IMG/VR virus record: IMGVR_UViG_3300020450_000082
Location: 1-26,199 of that record
Origin: a virus
Length of the DNA stretch: 26,199 nt
Direction: 5' to 3' (one strand)
Below the pieces are notes generated by a model, which was given only the letters and a program-made list of their open reading frames with translations, did not search any database and was not told where the DNA came from. This document shows, one piece after another, positions 4,924 through 24,077 of the stretch (position 1 is its first letter; every line of letters begins with the position of its first letter). The position numbers were made by a program, and so were the translations under genes.

Positions 4924-5151
4924 ATGGAAACAATCAAAAAACTGCAGGATTATATAAGAAAATATTTAGCTAAAGAGAATATATCTATAGAGCAATTGAG
5001 ATTAGGTTATGTAGATAATCCTTTACCTATAGGTTTTAGCTCCTTAATGAATTTGCTAAATAAAAATGAGCTTTCTCTAAAACAACAAGCACTACTTATT
5101 GAGTTTTTTGGATTTGAATATGAGTTAGTTATGTACAATTATGAATTTTAA
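4924..5151 (+). CDS. Hypothetical protein, 75 aa
   Basis: The gene encodes a small, mostly helical protein. The central segment SSLMNLLNKNELSLKQQALLI looks loosely like a helix-turn-helix of the kind found in short phage regulators, but I cannot match it to a family. It begins two bases after the MazG-like gene, and its end overlaps the next gene by 11 bases, so it belongs to the cassette transcript. It has no signal peptide or membrane segment. Function is unknown. Confidence 0.65.
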   Translation: METIKKLQDYIRKYLAKENISIEQLRLGYVDNPLPIGFSSLMNLLNKNELSLKQQALLIEFFGFEYELVMYNYEF

Positions 5152-5530
5152 CAAAAAACTTACTGATGATGACTGGATAGCTATTAAATTATTTTATAAT
5201 GACGATGGCACTAAAAAGATATATCCTTTTAGAAAAGGAGTTATGCAAGGTAGTTATTATAAAAAAAACTGGAATAATGGCAGTTTTGATAAATTGTTAT
5301 TTAGTGTTTATAATAAATACAAAAAACTATTAAATGAGCTATCTAAAAAAAAATATGGTATAGATATATCTATTAAGACATTCACAGTAAAAAAAAAGAT
5401 AGGAGGTTTGTTTTTAAATGGTAAAAAAGCTCAAACAATTAGTAGAGATATAGAGATAAAAGATCTCGCAAAATTGCCATTAAAAAAACAACTTTCAATG
5501 ATAGAAAACTTGTTTAATAAAGATTATTAA
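5141..5530 (+). CDS. Hypothetical basic protein, 129 aa, last gene of early cassette
   Basis: This is a Lys-rich protein of 129 residues with aromatic patches in the first half (LFYNDDG, YPFRKG, SYYKKNW). The C-terminal half looks helical (LKKQLSMIENLF). No known domain is recognised. The overall charge suggests nucleic-acid contact, but that is only inference. Its start overlaps the previous gene by 11 bases. Its last 21 bases contain the -33 element of the strong promoter that opens the replication block. It is therefore the last gene before a transcriptional boundary. Confidence 0.65.
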   Translation: MNFNKKLTDDDWIAIKLFYNDDGTKKIYPFRKGVMQGSYYKKNWNNGSFDKLLFSVYNKYKKLLNELSKKKYGIDISIKTFTVKKKIGGLFLNGKKAQTISRDIEIKDLAKLPLKKQLSMIENLFNKDY

Positions 5531-5540
5531 AGTATATTTG
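5510..5540 (+). promoter_or_regulatory. Bacteroidetes-type promoter for the leader RNA/replication genes
   Basis: TTG at 5510-5512, a 20-base spacer, then TATATTTG at 5533-5540. The second element matches the Bacteroidetes -7 consensus TAnnTTTG exactly, at the expected distance from the -33 TTG. Transcription should begin near 5546-5548, giving a leader of about 180 bases before the replication gene at 5729. It is the best promoter match I found in the window. Confidence 0.65.
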
Positions 5541-5545
5541 AGTAG

Positions 5546-5711
5546 CAGATGGATTAGGTGGCACTATCCTAGATACTGCTAAAAAGATAACGTAACATCG
5601 ACATAAATTGAATTTTATTTTACTTTGTATAGATAAGTCTATACAGGTGATTTGTAAGGAGCTTGTCGATGGCTCAGCCAAAACTTATGATCACTTGTAT
5701 AGACTTTTTTT
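5546..5711 (+). ncRNA. Structured leader or small RNA with intrinsic terminator
   Basis: Between the promoter and the replication gene lies a non-coding stretch with four nested structural signals. (1) A 5' hairpin pairs 5543-5548 with 5576-5581 and 5554-5558 with 5568-5572; its first bases precede the estimated start. (2) A main stem of 18 continuous pairs joins 5635-5652 to 5689-5706 (two G-T wobbles). It is extended after a one-base bulge by 5654-5658 with 5684-5688 and capped by 5659-5662 with 5672-5675, then runs into T7 (5705-5711). (3) A competing hairpin pairs 5626-5633 with 5638-5645 and shares the 5' arm of the main stem. (4) The 9-base apical loop contains an octamer (5664-5671) perfectly complementary to 5596-5603, a possible pseudoknot. 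The geometry fits an attenuator, a riboswitch-like leader or a free small RNA. I recognise no known class. Confidence 0.6.
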
Positions 5712-5728
5712 ATTTAAATAAATACAAT

Positions 5729-6445
5729 ATGGAAAGAGATTCAATGGTAATATATAAATCGTTTTATGAAGCAATAAAAGATCTAGATACTGAAACAAAA
5801 GTACAGATTTATGATGCTATTTATCAATATGGTTTGTTTTTAATAGAGCCAAAAAGATTAAAAGGAGTAGCAAAAATAGTATGGACTTTAATAAAACCAC
5901 AGTTAGATGCAAACATAAAAAAGTATCAAGATGGTAAAAAAGGAGCTAAACATGGATCAAAAGGTGGTAGACCTAAAAAACCCCATACGGTTAATAATAA
6001 AAACCCCTTAGGGGTTAATAGTAAAAACCCCATACGGTTAGAGTCTAAAACCCCTAATGTAAATGTTAATGTAAATGATAATGATAATGTAAATGATAAT
6101 GTAAATAAAGAATTAGATTTTTCTAAAAATAATTTAAATGATTTACATAAACATCTAGATAAATCATTCCAATTAGATGGACAGAAAAAACTAAGGAATA
6201 ATTTAGAGCTATACAGAATGTTTCTTAAATGGATAGTCTATAGAGGGATTGATAGGAATAATCTGCCAGTAGTAGAAATGACTTTAAAAATATTTATTAG
6301 ATTCTGCAAAAATAATTATACTACAGATTCCATCATAGCAGCTACAGAATATGCTATGCTCGAAAATAATAAAACTATCCACCCTAAAGAAAAGATAGAT
6401 CCTTCAATGACCATAAATCTAAGGGAGGATATAAAAAATTCATAA
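5729..6445 (+). CDS. DUF6291-type replication initiator-like protein
   Basis: The product has 238 residues from ATG 5729. In-frame upstream starts (TTG 5663, ATG 5669) lie inside the leader hairpin and would add about 20 residues ahead of the usual family start. ATG 5744 is also possible. The N-terminal domain (MVIYKSFYEAIKDLD through ANIKKYQDGKKGAK, about 6-78) matches the DUF6291 family found in phage replication loci. It ends in a basic GSKGGRPKK stretch. Next comes a linker of four 8-residue repeats (K-N-P type) and an Asn/Val/Asp-rich run, encoded by the iteron-like repeats and AT-rich DNA described separately. The C-terminal helical domain (about 140-238) could recruit the DnaB helicase encoded four bases downstream, as lambda O recruits lambda P and host DnaB. 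That role is inferred from order and architecture. Confidence 0.75.
   Translation: MERDSMVIYKSFYEAIKDLDTETKVQIYDAIYQYGLFLIEPKRLKGVAKIVWTLIKPQLDANIKKYQDGKKGAKHGSKGGRPKKPHTVNNKNPLGVNSKNPIRLESKTPNVNVNVNDNDNVNDNVNKELDFSKNNLNDLHKHLDKSFQLDGQKKLRNNLELYRMFLKWIVYRGIDRNNLPVVEMTLKIFIRFCKNNYTTDSIIAATEYAMLENNKTIHPKEKIDPSMTINLREDIKNS
5975..6055 (+). repeat. Iteron-like array of four 24-base repeats inside the initiator gene
   Basis: Four units with a 24-base codon period start with A-rich runs followed by CCCC at 5981, 6004, 6028 and 6051. Units 1 and 3 share an identical 18-mer (5976-5993 and 6023-6040). Unit 2 is a perfect palindrome around TTA (AACCCC-TTA-GGGGTT, 6002-6016). Unit 4 is degenerate. Inverted AACC/GGTT symmetry inside units 1-3 looks like a protein-binding site. 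The array is followed by AT-rich DNA, as in iteron origins. It also encodes a protein linker, so a purely coding explanation remains possible. Confidence 0.55.
6054..6170 (+). other. AT-rich low-complexity stretch, candidate DNA unwinding element
   Basis: This stretch directly follows the iteron-like array, inside the same gene. It begins with tandem hexamers of the GTAAAT/GATAAT type (6059-6112), encoding an Asn-Val/Asn-Asp run, and continues with almost G/C-free DNA to about 6170. Next to iterons, such DNA is where origins melt. Without the array it would be read only as a flexible linker. Confidence 0.4.
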
Positions 6446-6449
6446 CGAC

Positions 6450-7877
6450 ATGGAAAAATCAATGATGCATCCAAATGCTCCAGAAATAGAAGCAGCATTA
6501 GTATCAGCAATAATAACATCTCCAGACAATATCTATAGCTGCATACAACTATTAAACTCTGATTGTTTCTATACAAACAAATATAGAGTAGTATGGAATG
6601 CCTTAATAGATATGCATAAAAATGCTAGTGTTATAGATGTCCCTAAACTCTATCAATATCTTAAAGATAATAATCAACTAGATGAGATAGGAGGAGCAGC
6701 AGATATAGCAGGACTAACAAACAAGTATTTTACTCATGATGTGCCAGGATACTCTAAAATATTGTATCAAAAGTACATGAGGAGAGAAGCTATAAAAAAA
6801 GCTAGTAAGCTGCTTAGATCAAGTTTTGACGAGTCTAATGATATATTTGATGTACTTACTAACACAAAGGAATCATTAATATCAATTCTATCTCCAGATG
6901 TATCAAGGGTAAATACTGCACATAGCATCATAAATAATAATTTGATGCATCTAAAAGAGAATATAGGCAAGTATCAAGAGGTCACAGGAATACCAACAGG
7001 TTACGAGCATTTTGATAAACGTACTGGAGGATGTGGAGCAGGGTGGCTTATGATTATAGGTGGACGTCCTGCAATGGGCAAAACTACCTTTGTATTAAAT
7101 GTTGCTTGGAATGCGTACAAACACTTTAATAAATCTGGAATGTTTTTTAGCGGAGAGATGTCTAGCAAACAAATATCTCACTTGATAATGGCTACTGAGT
7201 CCGGTATACCTGCATCCGACATAAAAAAGAATAGAGTATCTAGCTTACAACTAGAATGTATGTTTGATACTTTTAGAGAAAAAAAGAAAAATGTATTTTT
7301 AATAGATGATACTCCTAATCCTGCACTTACTCACATACTAGCAGAAGCAACAAAAGCAAAAATGCAACATGATATAGATTTTGTAATTATCGATTATATT
7401 CAGCTTGTTAAAGCTACAGGAGCATCTAGGCATTTAGAGGTAGGTAAAATATCTAGAGAGCTAAAAGCACTAGCAAGAAACTTAAATATACCTGTAATAG
7501 CACTAGCACAATTAAGTAGAGCAGTAGAAAATAGACCTAACAAAAAACCACAATTATCGGATCTTAAAGAGTCTGGAGATATAGAGCAGGATGCAGATGT
7601 AGTATCTTTCCTTTATAGACCTGAATATTATGGAATAGAAAAAGATAATGATGGTATGAACTTAGAAGGAGTAACATACTTAATTACCAAAAAAAATAGG
7701 CATGGAGAGGTAGGCACAGATTTACTACACATGAACAAAAAAACATCTAGCTTTGAGATGTTTGATGTAGAAGGGCAGCAGTCAATACCAGTAGAAAGAT
7801 ATGATAGGAGATTAACACAAATGCAAGATATGAACACAGTTACAATAGATTTTGATGGTGATGCTTTGCCATTTTAA
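6450..7877 (+). CDS. dnaB: Replicative DNA helicase DnaB
   Basis: The helicase has 475 residues. An N-terminal DnaB helical domain (about 8-110) begins with the family signature around APEIEAALVSAI. The RecA-like ATPase follows: GGRPAMGKT Walker A at 204-212, a catalytic Glu in SGEMS near 234-238, Walker B VIIDYIQLV at 312-320, ALAQLSR near 351-357, and the DLKESGDIEQDADVV motif at 371-385. It unwinds DNA as a hexamer at the phage replication fork. It lies four bases after the DUF6291 gene, which probably loads or recruits it. Oddly, the C-terminus ends in an acidic stretch closing with DGDALPF, very like the tip of single-stranded DNA-binding proteins. The nearby SSB-like protein ends in DDLPF. 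Confidence 0.96.
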   Translation: MEKSMMHPNAPEIEAALVSAIITSPDNIYSCIQLLNSDCFYTNKYRVVWNALIDMHKNASVIDVPKLYQYLKDNNQLDEIGGAADIAGLTNKYFTHDVPGYSKILYQKYMRREAIKKASKLLRSSFDESNDIFDVLTNTKESLISILSPDVSRVNTAHSIINNNLMHLKENIGKYQEVTGIPTGYEHFDKRTGGCGAGWLMIIGGRPAMGKTTFVLNVAWNAYKHFNKSGMFFSGEMSSKQISHLIMATESGIPASDIKKNRVSSLQLECMFDTFREKKKNVFLIDDTPNPALTHILAEATKAKMQHDIDFVIIDYIQLVKATGASRHLEVGKISRELKALARNLNIPVIALAQLSRAVENRPNKKPQLSDLKESGDIEQDADVVSFLYRPEYYGIEKDNDGMNLEGVTYLITKKNRHGEVGTDLLHMNKKTSSFEMFDVEGQQSIPVERYDRRLTQMQDMNTVTIDFDGDALPF

Positions 7878-21469: not shown

Positions 21470-24077
21470 TAGCGTTATTAATTATTCTGATCTCATTGGG
21501 AAAGACGATACATTTTCTGAGATATTTGCAAATATAGAGAGATTAAAAAAGGAGTTAGCAGATCTGGCTAAACAGGCACAGAAAGACCTAGATCTTATCA
21601 ATCCTAACAATGAGGAAAAGCTAAAAAAAGCAGTTAAGCAAGTTGAGGATCTAACTAAAGCCAGTAAGCAGTTAGAAACAGAGCGGAAAAAGGCAGTAAA
21701 AACCAGAAAGAAGTTAGCAGATCTTACAGATGAGGAGCTAATACAAAGAGAGAAACAAAGAATAGCCAATAGAGAAAGAGTACAGATAGCTAAACAAACT
21801 GCTATAGTCCAAAGCCAACAGGCAGGACAGATAGAAAAGCTTAGAGCACAACTATCTTTAACTACCTTACAATGGAAAAAGCTTAGTAAAAACGAGTTAG
21901 AGAATGGTAAAGAGGGTAAAAAGCTTATAAAAACTAAGAAAAGACTTACAGAGGAGCTAAAAAGACTGGAGAAACAGACAGGAGATAACAGAAGGAATGT
22001 AGGAAACTATACATCATCATTAGGTAGATTAGGAAAAGTAGCATTAGGGATATTTGTAGGTAGAAACTTAATCTCTGGTATTCGTAGAGTAGGAGGTGCA
22101 TTTGTAGATTTATTTAAAGAAAATCAAAAAGGGAATGAAACTTTTGAAAAGTTTAGTAATACAGTAACATCTATTATATCAACTACTAAAAAGTTTGGTG
22201 TACAGATACTAGAGTTTATTATCCCTGCATTTCAAAGAGGAGTAAGATTATTCCAGTTTGCATTTGAAAAGATAAGAGATTTTGGATCGTCATTAAGTGG
22301 TGTAGGTGAATCAAGCTCCATAGTAGGTAAAATATTAACTGCTGCTTTTAGTAGAATTGCTAAGGGTGTTAAATTTGTAACTAGTCTATTTACAGAGTTT
22401 CCTTTTATTTTTGCAGGGATTGTAGCAGGAGCTAAGCAGCTAAGATCTAATCTAGCAGATGTATTTACAAAACTATCTTTAAGATTACAGATATTATTTG
22501 AAAACATAAAAAGTAATATCCCTTTTCAAGATGAGGAAACACAACAAAAAATACAAAAAAATATAGAGCGCTTAAAAACTCAACTAGATACAGTAAATAA
22601 ATCTCAAAAAGGAGTAGGAGAGGCATTCAGAGAGGCTTTTAATCAAGCTAAAAATGAGTTTGAGGAGTTTAGTAAGGCTAGAGATATAGAGGATGCAAAG
22701 ATAGCAGAAGCAGAAAAGAGAAAGGAGAAAGCAGCAAAAAGACGAGAGGCATCATTAAAAAGACAAAATGAGCTACTAGCACTACAACAATCTATAGAGC
22801 AGAACATATCTAGCAGAGTAGAGGCTATTGTATCTCTACAGAACCAGATAGAACAAGCAGAAGCAAACTCTATAGAGGATAGCCAGGAGCGATTACTAAG
22901 ATTAGAGGAGTTAAAGGCTAAAGCAGTAAACGAGCAAAGAGAGAAACAGTTTGATGCATTTGTCGCACAACTAGAGAAACAAGAGGAGGAGTTAATAGCT
23001 TTCTTTGGAGAGAATAGTGCAGAGGTGTTAAAGTTTAGAGAGGAGGTAGGAGATGAGTTACTACTATTAGAAAAAAAGAATCAACTACTATCAGAGCTAC
23101 AACTACAGGAGTCAGAAGCTAGAAAAAAAGCTATAAGAGATAAGGCAAAAAAGGAAACAGTTAAGGATATAAAAAAAGCAGTAGAGGAGATTAGTGCAAT
23201 CACAAAAACTCAGCAGGAGAAAGATGAGAAAGATCTAGAGGATTTTAATAAAAAGCAAAGAGAATTAGTAGATTTAGGTGCTAAAATTGATGAGCAGAAT
23301 GCTAAAGATAAGGAGAAAAGACAAAAAAAGCTATTTAATGCTATAGCTGCTACAAGTCAAAAGATAGGTGATGTAATTAATGCAGCATTTGAGAAGCAGT
23401 TAAACCTAGCTACAAGTCTAGTAGAGCAGCAATCAGCAGCAGTAGATACACAGAGAGAAAGAGCAGAACAAGGATTAAAAAGTACTTTGGCATTTGAGCA
23501 GCAAGAGTTAGCAGATAGAGAAGCAGAAAGAATAAGAGCAGAAAAAAAAGCTAAACAAGCTGCAGAGTTTATAACACTACTAAACCTGGTATCTGCATAT
23601 GCTGCAAGTGGAGATAGCAATGCACTTGCAAGAGGCTTAATAGATTTTAGCTTACTAAAGGCATTAGAAACAGGATTAGGCTTTGAGGAGGGAGGTTATA
23701 CTGGAGATAATGGTACTAAAGATATTGCAGGAGTCGTACATGGTCAGGAATATGTAGTTAGAGCAGAGGATGTAAAAAGATTTGGACTTACTGGCAAAGG
23801 TGGAGATGAGTTTGGAGAGGCTATGAGTGATTACTTTTATTCTCCATTGCAGCAGAACCTATATGATGCACAGGCTAACAACTTTAAAAAAGGAATGACT
23901 GTAGTCAATAAGTTTGCATCTTTAGAGAATGAAGTAAAGGAGATGCGTAAAGCCTTCCAATCTATGCCACAGAAAGACTATGATCTAGTACAAATGACTG
24001 ATTATTTTGTAGAGATCTCTAAAAGAGTGACACAAAACAAGCTAACAAACGTATCTAAACAGAGAAAAAGATTATAA
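21462..24077 (+). CDS. Tail tape measure protein
   Basis: The protein has 871 residues. Residues 20-175 are a long coiled coil (IERLKKELADLAKQAQKDLD and following heptads). They end in KQTGDNRRNVGNYTSSLG (171-188), a signature I associate with Bacteroidetes tape measures. Hydrophobic segments follow at about 190-215 and 245-330. A second long coiled coil runs at about 370-700. Near 740-772 is GFEEGGYTGDNG, then GVVHGQEYVVRAEDV, the C-terminal motif of many tape measure proteins. It sets tail length and helps DNA cross the envelope. By the usual 0.15 nm per residue it would give a tail of about 130 nm. It starts within the end of the chaperone extension and shares one base with the next gene. 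Confidence 0.92.
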   Translation: MADSVINYSDLIGKDDTFSEIFANIERLKKELADLAKQAQKDLDLINPNNEEKLKKAVKQVEDLTKASKQLETERKKAVKTRKKLADLTDEELIQREKQRIANRERVQIAKQTAIVQSQQAGQIEKLRAQLSLTTLQWKKLSKNELENGKEGKKLIKTKKRLTEELKRLEKQTGDNRRNVGNYTSSLGRLGKVALGIFVGRNLISGIRRVGGAFVDLFKENQKGNETFEKFSNTVTSIISTTKKFGVQILEFIIPAFQRGVRLFQFAFEKIRDFGSSLSGVGESSSIVGKILTAAFSRIAKGVKFVTSLFTEFPFIFAGIVAGAKQLRSNLADVFTKLSLRLQILFENIKSNIPFQDEETQQKIQKNIERLKTQLDTVNKSQKGVGEAFREAFNQAKNEFEEFSKARDIEDAKIAEAEKRKEKAAKRREASLKRQNELLALQQSIEQNISSRVEAIVSLQNQIEQAEANSIEDSQERLLRLEELKAKAVNEQREKQFDAFVAQLEKQEEELIAFFGENSAEVLKFREEVGDELLLLEKKNQLLSELQLQESEARKKAIRDKAKKETVKDIKKAVEEISAITKTQQEKDEKDLEDFNKKQRELVDLGAKIDEQNAKDKEKRQKKLFNAIAATSQKIGDVINAAFEKQLNLATSLVEQQSAAVDTQRERAEQGLKSTLAFEQQELADREAERIRAEKKAKQAAEFITLLNLVSAYAASGDSNALARGLIDFSLLKALETGLGFEEGGYTGDNGTKDIAGVVHGQEYVVRAEDVKRFGLTGKGGDEFGEAMSDYFYSPLQQNLYDAQANNFKKGMTVVNKFASLENEVKEMRKAFQSMPQKDYDLVQMTDYFVEISKRVTQNKLTNVSKQRKRL

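Follow-up and report, generated by a model that had tools for sequence, protein, structure and literature searches.

A structured leader RNA before replication genes of uncultivated phages, with a 5′ segment complementary to the loop of its own putative terminator

A leader lying between promoter and replication genes in a 26.2-kb viral record from IMG/VR (the whole record being the window analysed here) carries a segment, a, that is exactly complementary to the loop, a′, of an intrinsic-terminator-like hairpin further along the same strand. Comparison of sequences gives good support to this a:a′ contact and to the terminator stem, b:b′, as structures of a family of leaders, and to their presence in the window through the architecture that it shares with the family. 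Position and analogy suggest that the leader is probably a cis-acting transcription attenuator of the early replication operon.

All elements of the window leader lie on the + strand. A Bacteroidetes-type promoter (5510–5540) consists of a −33 TTG at 5510–5512, a spacer of 20 nucleotides and a −7 element, TATATTTG, at 5533–5540, which would place the start of transcription near 5546. A 5′ hairpin region (5544–5580; AGCAG/CTGCT and GGAT/ATCC) was recognised from the sequence and from alignment A7; minimum-energy folds differ here and the exact pairs are uncertain. Segment a, CATCGACA, occupies 5596–5603, and is followed by arm c, TTGTATAGA (5625–5633), which copies part of b′ and can pair with the 5′ part of b to form an alternative, antiterminator-like hairpin of 8 bp (5626–5633 with 5638–5645). 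The terminator is formed by the 5′ arm b (5635–5652) and the 3′ arm b′ (5689–5706), which give an 18-bp stem with two G-U pairs, and ends in a T7 tract (5705–5711; arm and tract together 5689–5711). Sequence and folding place within it an apical hairpin (GAGC/GCTC, 5659–5675), whose nine-nucleotide loop (5663–5671) displays a′, TGTCGATG (5664–5671), matching a over 8 bp.

A first-pass annotation had noticed the promoter, stem, T7 tract, alternative hairpin and loop match, and the pairing coordinates that it gave were all exact, both when read directly and by tool. It had also described the stem as extended and reading as an intrinsic terminator; that layout is present, with the extra pairs of b:b′ appearing in the minimum-energy fold. 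Its view of the region as a structured RNA is borne out by a fold z-score of −4.1, equalled by 0 of 200 shuffles, and by compensatory changes in a:a′ and b:b′ in relatives. In the same architecture, the strength of a:a′ was reached in three of 5000 dinucleotide shuffles of 5510–5728, and jointly with the strength of the terminator in none of 5000. The alternative pairing of L1 with b (8 nucleotides) was reached in 0 of 200 shuffles of L1, and the c:b hairpin in the window has p = 0.003. Segments a and a′ each occur only once within the 26-kb window.

No Rfam 15 covariance model matched the window at E values up to 1, and none, RF01695 included, matched the leaders in 18 relatives or six loci of the family's type A. 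Catalogued phage isolates yielded no convincing DNA match, and no description of such a leader was found in papers, although unpublished or subscription-only accounts are possible. The leader RNA, missing both from Rfam and from the literature searched, looks undescribed, as the first-pass annotation had supposed.

Directly downstream of the leader, and starting 17 nucleotides past its T-tract, is a gene for a DUF6291 protein (5729–6445, + strand; Pfam PF19808, E = 4e-22). PHROG 15768 brings the DUF6291 protein together with a DnaD-like loader, and the protein is likely to be a replication initiator or loader; its predicted structure was of low confidence (pLDDT 61) and had no match in the PDB. 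The second gene of the presumed operon encodes a DnaB-type replicative helicase (6450–7877, + strand; Pfam DnaB_C, 1e-78), and the other + strand genes include DUF3127/SSB, terminase and virion genes. An open reading frame of 129 amino acids (5141–5530) sits just before the promoter, the 5′ part of which overlaps its end. This frame has no Pfam or PHROG match, and the viral collection contains nothing related to it, so that close relatives of the window are out of reach. The TAnnTTTG promoter and the protein families, rather than a taxonomic assignment, suggest a Bacteroidota host. Weak complementarity (71%) was seen between 5607–5630 and 5722–5745 of the window, and pairing of these segments would mask the DUF6291 start codon. 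Elsewhere, L076:1479–1556, close to another DUF6291 gene, is a type II hammerhead ribozyme according to Rfam.

Within the DUF6291 gene of the window (5976–6109) are three iteron-like repeats of about 23 nucleotides (AAAAACCCCATACGGTTA...) followed by an AT-rich tract of 6-nucleotide repeats, and other iteron-like repeats with an AT-rich tract occupy the same place in L048, L039 and L113. The λ origin sits within gene O, and by analogy the repeats suggest a λ-type origin inside the putative initiator gene. If so, initiator synthesis and transcription through the origin would both come under the control of the leader.

To compare leaders, we collected 124 distinct sequences from upstream of DUF6291 homologues and applied fixed criteria: a Watson-Crick a:a′ match, a b:b′ stem and a T-tract. 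Of the 124, 49 had the elements arranged as a, b, a′, b′, T; 50 rounds of shuffling averaged 1.36 such leaders and never gave more than 4, and two of 122 control regions taken 500–740 nucleotides upstream showed the arrangement. A −7 box, TAnnTTTG, lay within 30 nucleotides of segment a in 32 of the 49 relatives but in 3.2% of shuffles. The pattern is not due to chance. Three sequence types were distinguished among the leaders, A (41), B (16) and C (21). The terminator stem covaries in all three, and apical stems equivalent to that of the window covary in types A and B. Covariation in the leaders of related phages had been named beforehand as the check on the structure; compensatory changes were found in the main stem and in the loop contact across the three types. 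An exact search for the loop motif GAGCTTGTCGATGGCTC gave 32 matches, none of them inside such a leader.

Type A is the commonest and corresponds to an RNA of about 97 nucleotides. Segment a lies in the loop of the 5′ hairpin and a′ in the small apical loop of the terminator, so that their contact would be a kissing loop. In alignment A3 (n = 41) this helix was paired in 98.2% of cells, with compensatory changes in six of eight pairs, a score that is partly circular because membership of A3 was partly set by complementarity. For the whole structure 94.0% of cells were paired, against 70.9% after shuffling and 36–52% when slid. Sets chosen without regard to complementarity back A3, namely loci picked by 5′ motif, promoter and T-tract, DUF6291-anchored leaders, and alignments A6 and A7, assembled by 5′ motifs. 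The first of these sets held 54 loci, two of which were chance hits in coding sequence; all 52 true leaders had a matching a′, 50 exactly and two with one G-U pair, whereas non-cognate combinations of a and a′ matched in 2 of 2634 cases. The leaders L307:10276–10372 and L257:5509–5605 are identical at all 81 positions outside the kissing contact and differ within it by two compensatory pairs. These two leaders precede different genes.

When whole records were searched, 40 of them each contained a single strong type A copy. The ATG lies 4–25 nucleotides past the RNA end or T-tract in 67 of 71 type A loci, and no more than 87 nucleotides past it in all 71. The genes that follow are mostly DUF6291 genes, the others encoding DnaD-like loaders, SNF2 helicase-methylases, HNH proteins, endonuclease VII or small open reading frames. 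Unpaired letters are conserved within type A (an ATTATA loop and a GAA/GGA internal loop) and not across types. When the window was compared with the type A model R1 there was no significant match, and none at 5546–5711 on the + strand; the window appears related to type A in architecture only.

The window resembles type B more closely. Type B leaders have, in order, a 5′ hairpin, a segment a of the form NNNNNAC, a c arm, a terminator of 17–20 bp with a′ in the loop of an apical hairpin, and a T-tract. The window follows this order, with an a ending in AC (CATCGAC, compared with CATCTAC and CATCAAC in type B), a c arm copying b′, a long terminator and a T-tract, and its 5544–5580 hairpin region occupies the position of the type B 5′ hairpin. 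It lacks the type B 5′ motif, CGGAGTNACGAACCGA, and the second apical hairpin, and is therefore a divergent relative of type B and not a strict member. The type B a:a′ helix was paired in 95.8% of cells, with compensatory changes, in an alignment of 17 rows that include the window, which MAFFT placed out of register. In type B leaders (for example L303 and L488) the loop of the 5′ hairpin includes ACGAA, and TTCGT is present in the second apical loop; these could form a second kissing contact, and both are invariant.

The first-pass annotation had further proposed that the c:b hairpin and the terminator are mutually exclusive, and this part of the model stood for the window and type B and failed for types A and C, in which the c:b hairpin is not kept. 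In type B the c arm copies part of b′ (AACATTTAG, ATTAGG, CATTAG or CTTTAG, where the window has TTGTATAGA), the mean c:b score was 7.0 against 3.6 after shuffling, and c:b formed before b′ in 15 of 16 folds against 38% with shuffled L1. The antiterminator had initially been judged not conserved, a verdict that the type B data reversed for the sub-type of the window. With two of the three types lacking c:b, the family as a whole does not share a two-hairpin switch as its mechanism.

Type C forms an H-type pseudoknot in which a lies where the transcript is expected to begin. Its a:a′ helix (n = 21) was 98.9% paired, and both sides had changed in seven of nine pairs. Two type C leaders that differ in segment a occur together in some phages, one before the DUF6291 gene and one before an SNF2-helicase/methylase gene. 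The 18 larger records mostly contain one leader each, and one record of 34.9 kb has three; these belong to different types, differ in segment a and precede three different genes. Another variant, type D, was seen in L159, L164, L283 (+ strand) and L453 (record G025, near 21586); here a loop, TGTGGTAG or TGTAGGAG, is carried by a GTTG/CAAC-like hairpin and its complement lies in the terminator loop.

Among the functions listed in the first-pass annotation, attenuation is the best supported, the start codon being too near the T-tract for another promoter. As in an attenuator with an intrinsic terminator, the stem and T-tract separate the gene from its promoter and no second promoter intervenes; the 4–25 nucleotides between T-tract and ATG in most type A loci mean that the gene must be expressed by read-through. 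Before b′ is made, the window transcript folds into nested a:a′ and c:b helices (−29.5 kcal/mol), and into the terminator once b′ is present. In these calculations on growing transcripts, which use a nested model without kinetics or pseudoknots, a:a′ was part of the minimum-energy fold before b′ in 39 of 41 type A, 21 of 21 type C and 3 of 16 type B leaders, the low count in type B arising because the apical hairpin competes. Transcription would start just before the 5′ hairpin, and a would pair with a′ as soon as the latter is transcribed. In the window and in type B, c would meanwhile occupy the 5′ side of b, until the emerging b′ displaces it to form the terminator, with a:a′ retained as a pseudoknot or kissing contact. 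Most transcripts would end at the T-tract; delayed pairing of b′, or an early fold stabilised by a phage or host protein, a ligand or polymerase speed, would allow read-through into the replication genes. Comparison establishes, at the level of sequence, the promoter, the short distance from T-tract to start codon, the a:a′ and b:b′ helices and, for type B, the c:b hairpin, and from these we infer that termination occurs at the leader and is regulated there. The a:a′ contact could either aid or hinder termination.

The promoter and terminator at opposite ends of the leader would also suit an RNA of about 95–165 nucleotides that is itself the product, a stable small RNA capped by its kissing or pseudoknot fold, whose targets in trans would be the host, co-infecting phages or new leaders of the phage itself (as a copy-number brake, with a binding a′ of another molecule), while the gene behind lives on leakage. 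Most genomes having a single copy, before differing first genes, fits such a role, as do the differing kissing letters of close relatives, such as the pair with 81 identical outside positions, and the differences between co-resident copies. The very tight spacing to the ATG speaks against it. Exact extra targets for the kissing sequence in 18 phage genomes numbered 2 against 7.0 expected; this lack of a surplus, together with the single a and a′ of the window, makes action in trans less likely and favours action in cis. No leader was found in sampled bacterial genomes (0 of 396 with the model and 0 of 395 with the pattern, no positive control genome being among them), which weakens a role in prophage immunity; a scan of GTDB loci gave 17 hits where 7 were expected, of which one (L184) was convincing. 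We consider the small RNA unlikely. A related and rather less likely idea is that the kissing segments are self-recognition tags: once terminated, the leader RNA of a phage would base-pair in trans with any nascent leader bearing its own tag and silence the replication operon behind it. It would imply RNA-based control of copy number and superinfection, with diversification by paired changes like that of plasmid incompatibility loops.

There is a slim chance that the transcript, or its passage, primes or activates a replication origin and does not control the gene. The place of the leader before replication genes, and the iteron-like repeats and AT-rich tract within the next gene as in the λ origin, agree with this, but the terminator would halt a primer 265 nucleotides short of the repeats, there is no GC-skew switch at the leader, and some phages have the RNA before other genes or in two or three copies. 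An equally slim chance attaches to a translational leader or mRNA stabiliser, in which the pseudoknot shields the 5′ end and the base of the hairpin sets ribosome access to the ATG; the start codon 4–25 nucleotides past the hairpin and a type C a that begins at about the expected transcript start would suit it, yet the T-tract beside a GC-rich stem is kept throughout and is unneeded for such a role. AT-rich DNA gives many weak repeats, and a loose stem scan was near noise (132 hits against 105 in shuffles), for which reason it was replaced by stricter scans, controlled by shuffles, by control regions and by cognate/non-cognate comparison. An ordinary terminator with accidental complementarity is nevertheless refuted for the family by the covariation, the cognate/non-cognate test and the census. 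A DNA-level palindrome is likewise already refuted for the family: as the first-pass annotation had argued from the wobbles, the G-U pairs favour RNA, and so do the strand-specific promoter and T-tract. The chance left to these two readings is negligible.

The results point to a widespread layer of RNA control before replication genes in uncultivated phages apparently infecting Bacteroidota. As an attenuator the design would be unusual, in that the 5′ end of the transcript contacts the loop of its own terminator and the contact is kept, in several sequence types, through full turnover of the sequence. The leader could also serve elsewhere as an orthogonal control part.

Riboswitches and protein-responsive attenuator leaders share with this family a promoter-proximal structured leader, an intrinsic terminator and a coding region right behind it, and with the window and type B also a competing 5′ arm that copies part of the terminator 3′ arm. 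They differ in that here there is no Rfam match and the partner of the 5′ strand is the loop of the terminator itself; most unpaired letters vary between types, and no shared aptamer core was seen. The c4 antisense RNA (RF01695) and the P4 CI RNA are processed antisense RNAs that give prophage immunity. Like them, the leader is an early-operon phage RNA whose short complementary segments within one transcript drift while keeping their complementarity, but it has no targets outside itself, was not found in prophages and does not match RF01695. The put RNA of HK022 is similarly structured and likewise opens an early phage transcript, but it makes polymerase ignore later terminators and, unlike the leader described here, has no terminator of its own. 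Plasmid replication control (RNA I/RNA II, pT181, pIP501) likewise combines kissing loops with leader attenuation before a replication gene. In the plasmids a separate antisense transcript supplies the partner loop, whereas the two partners in the phage leaders share a strand and covary.
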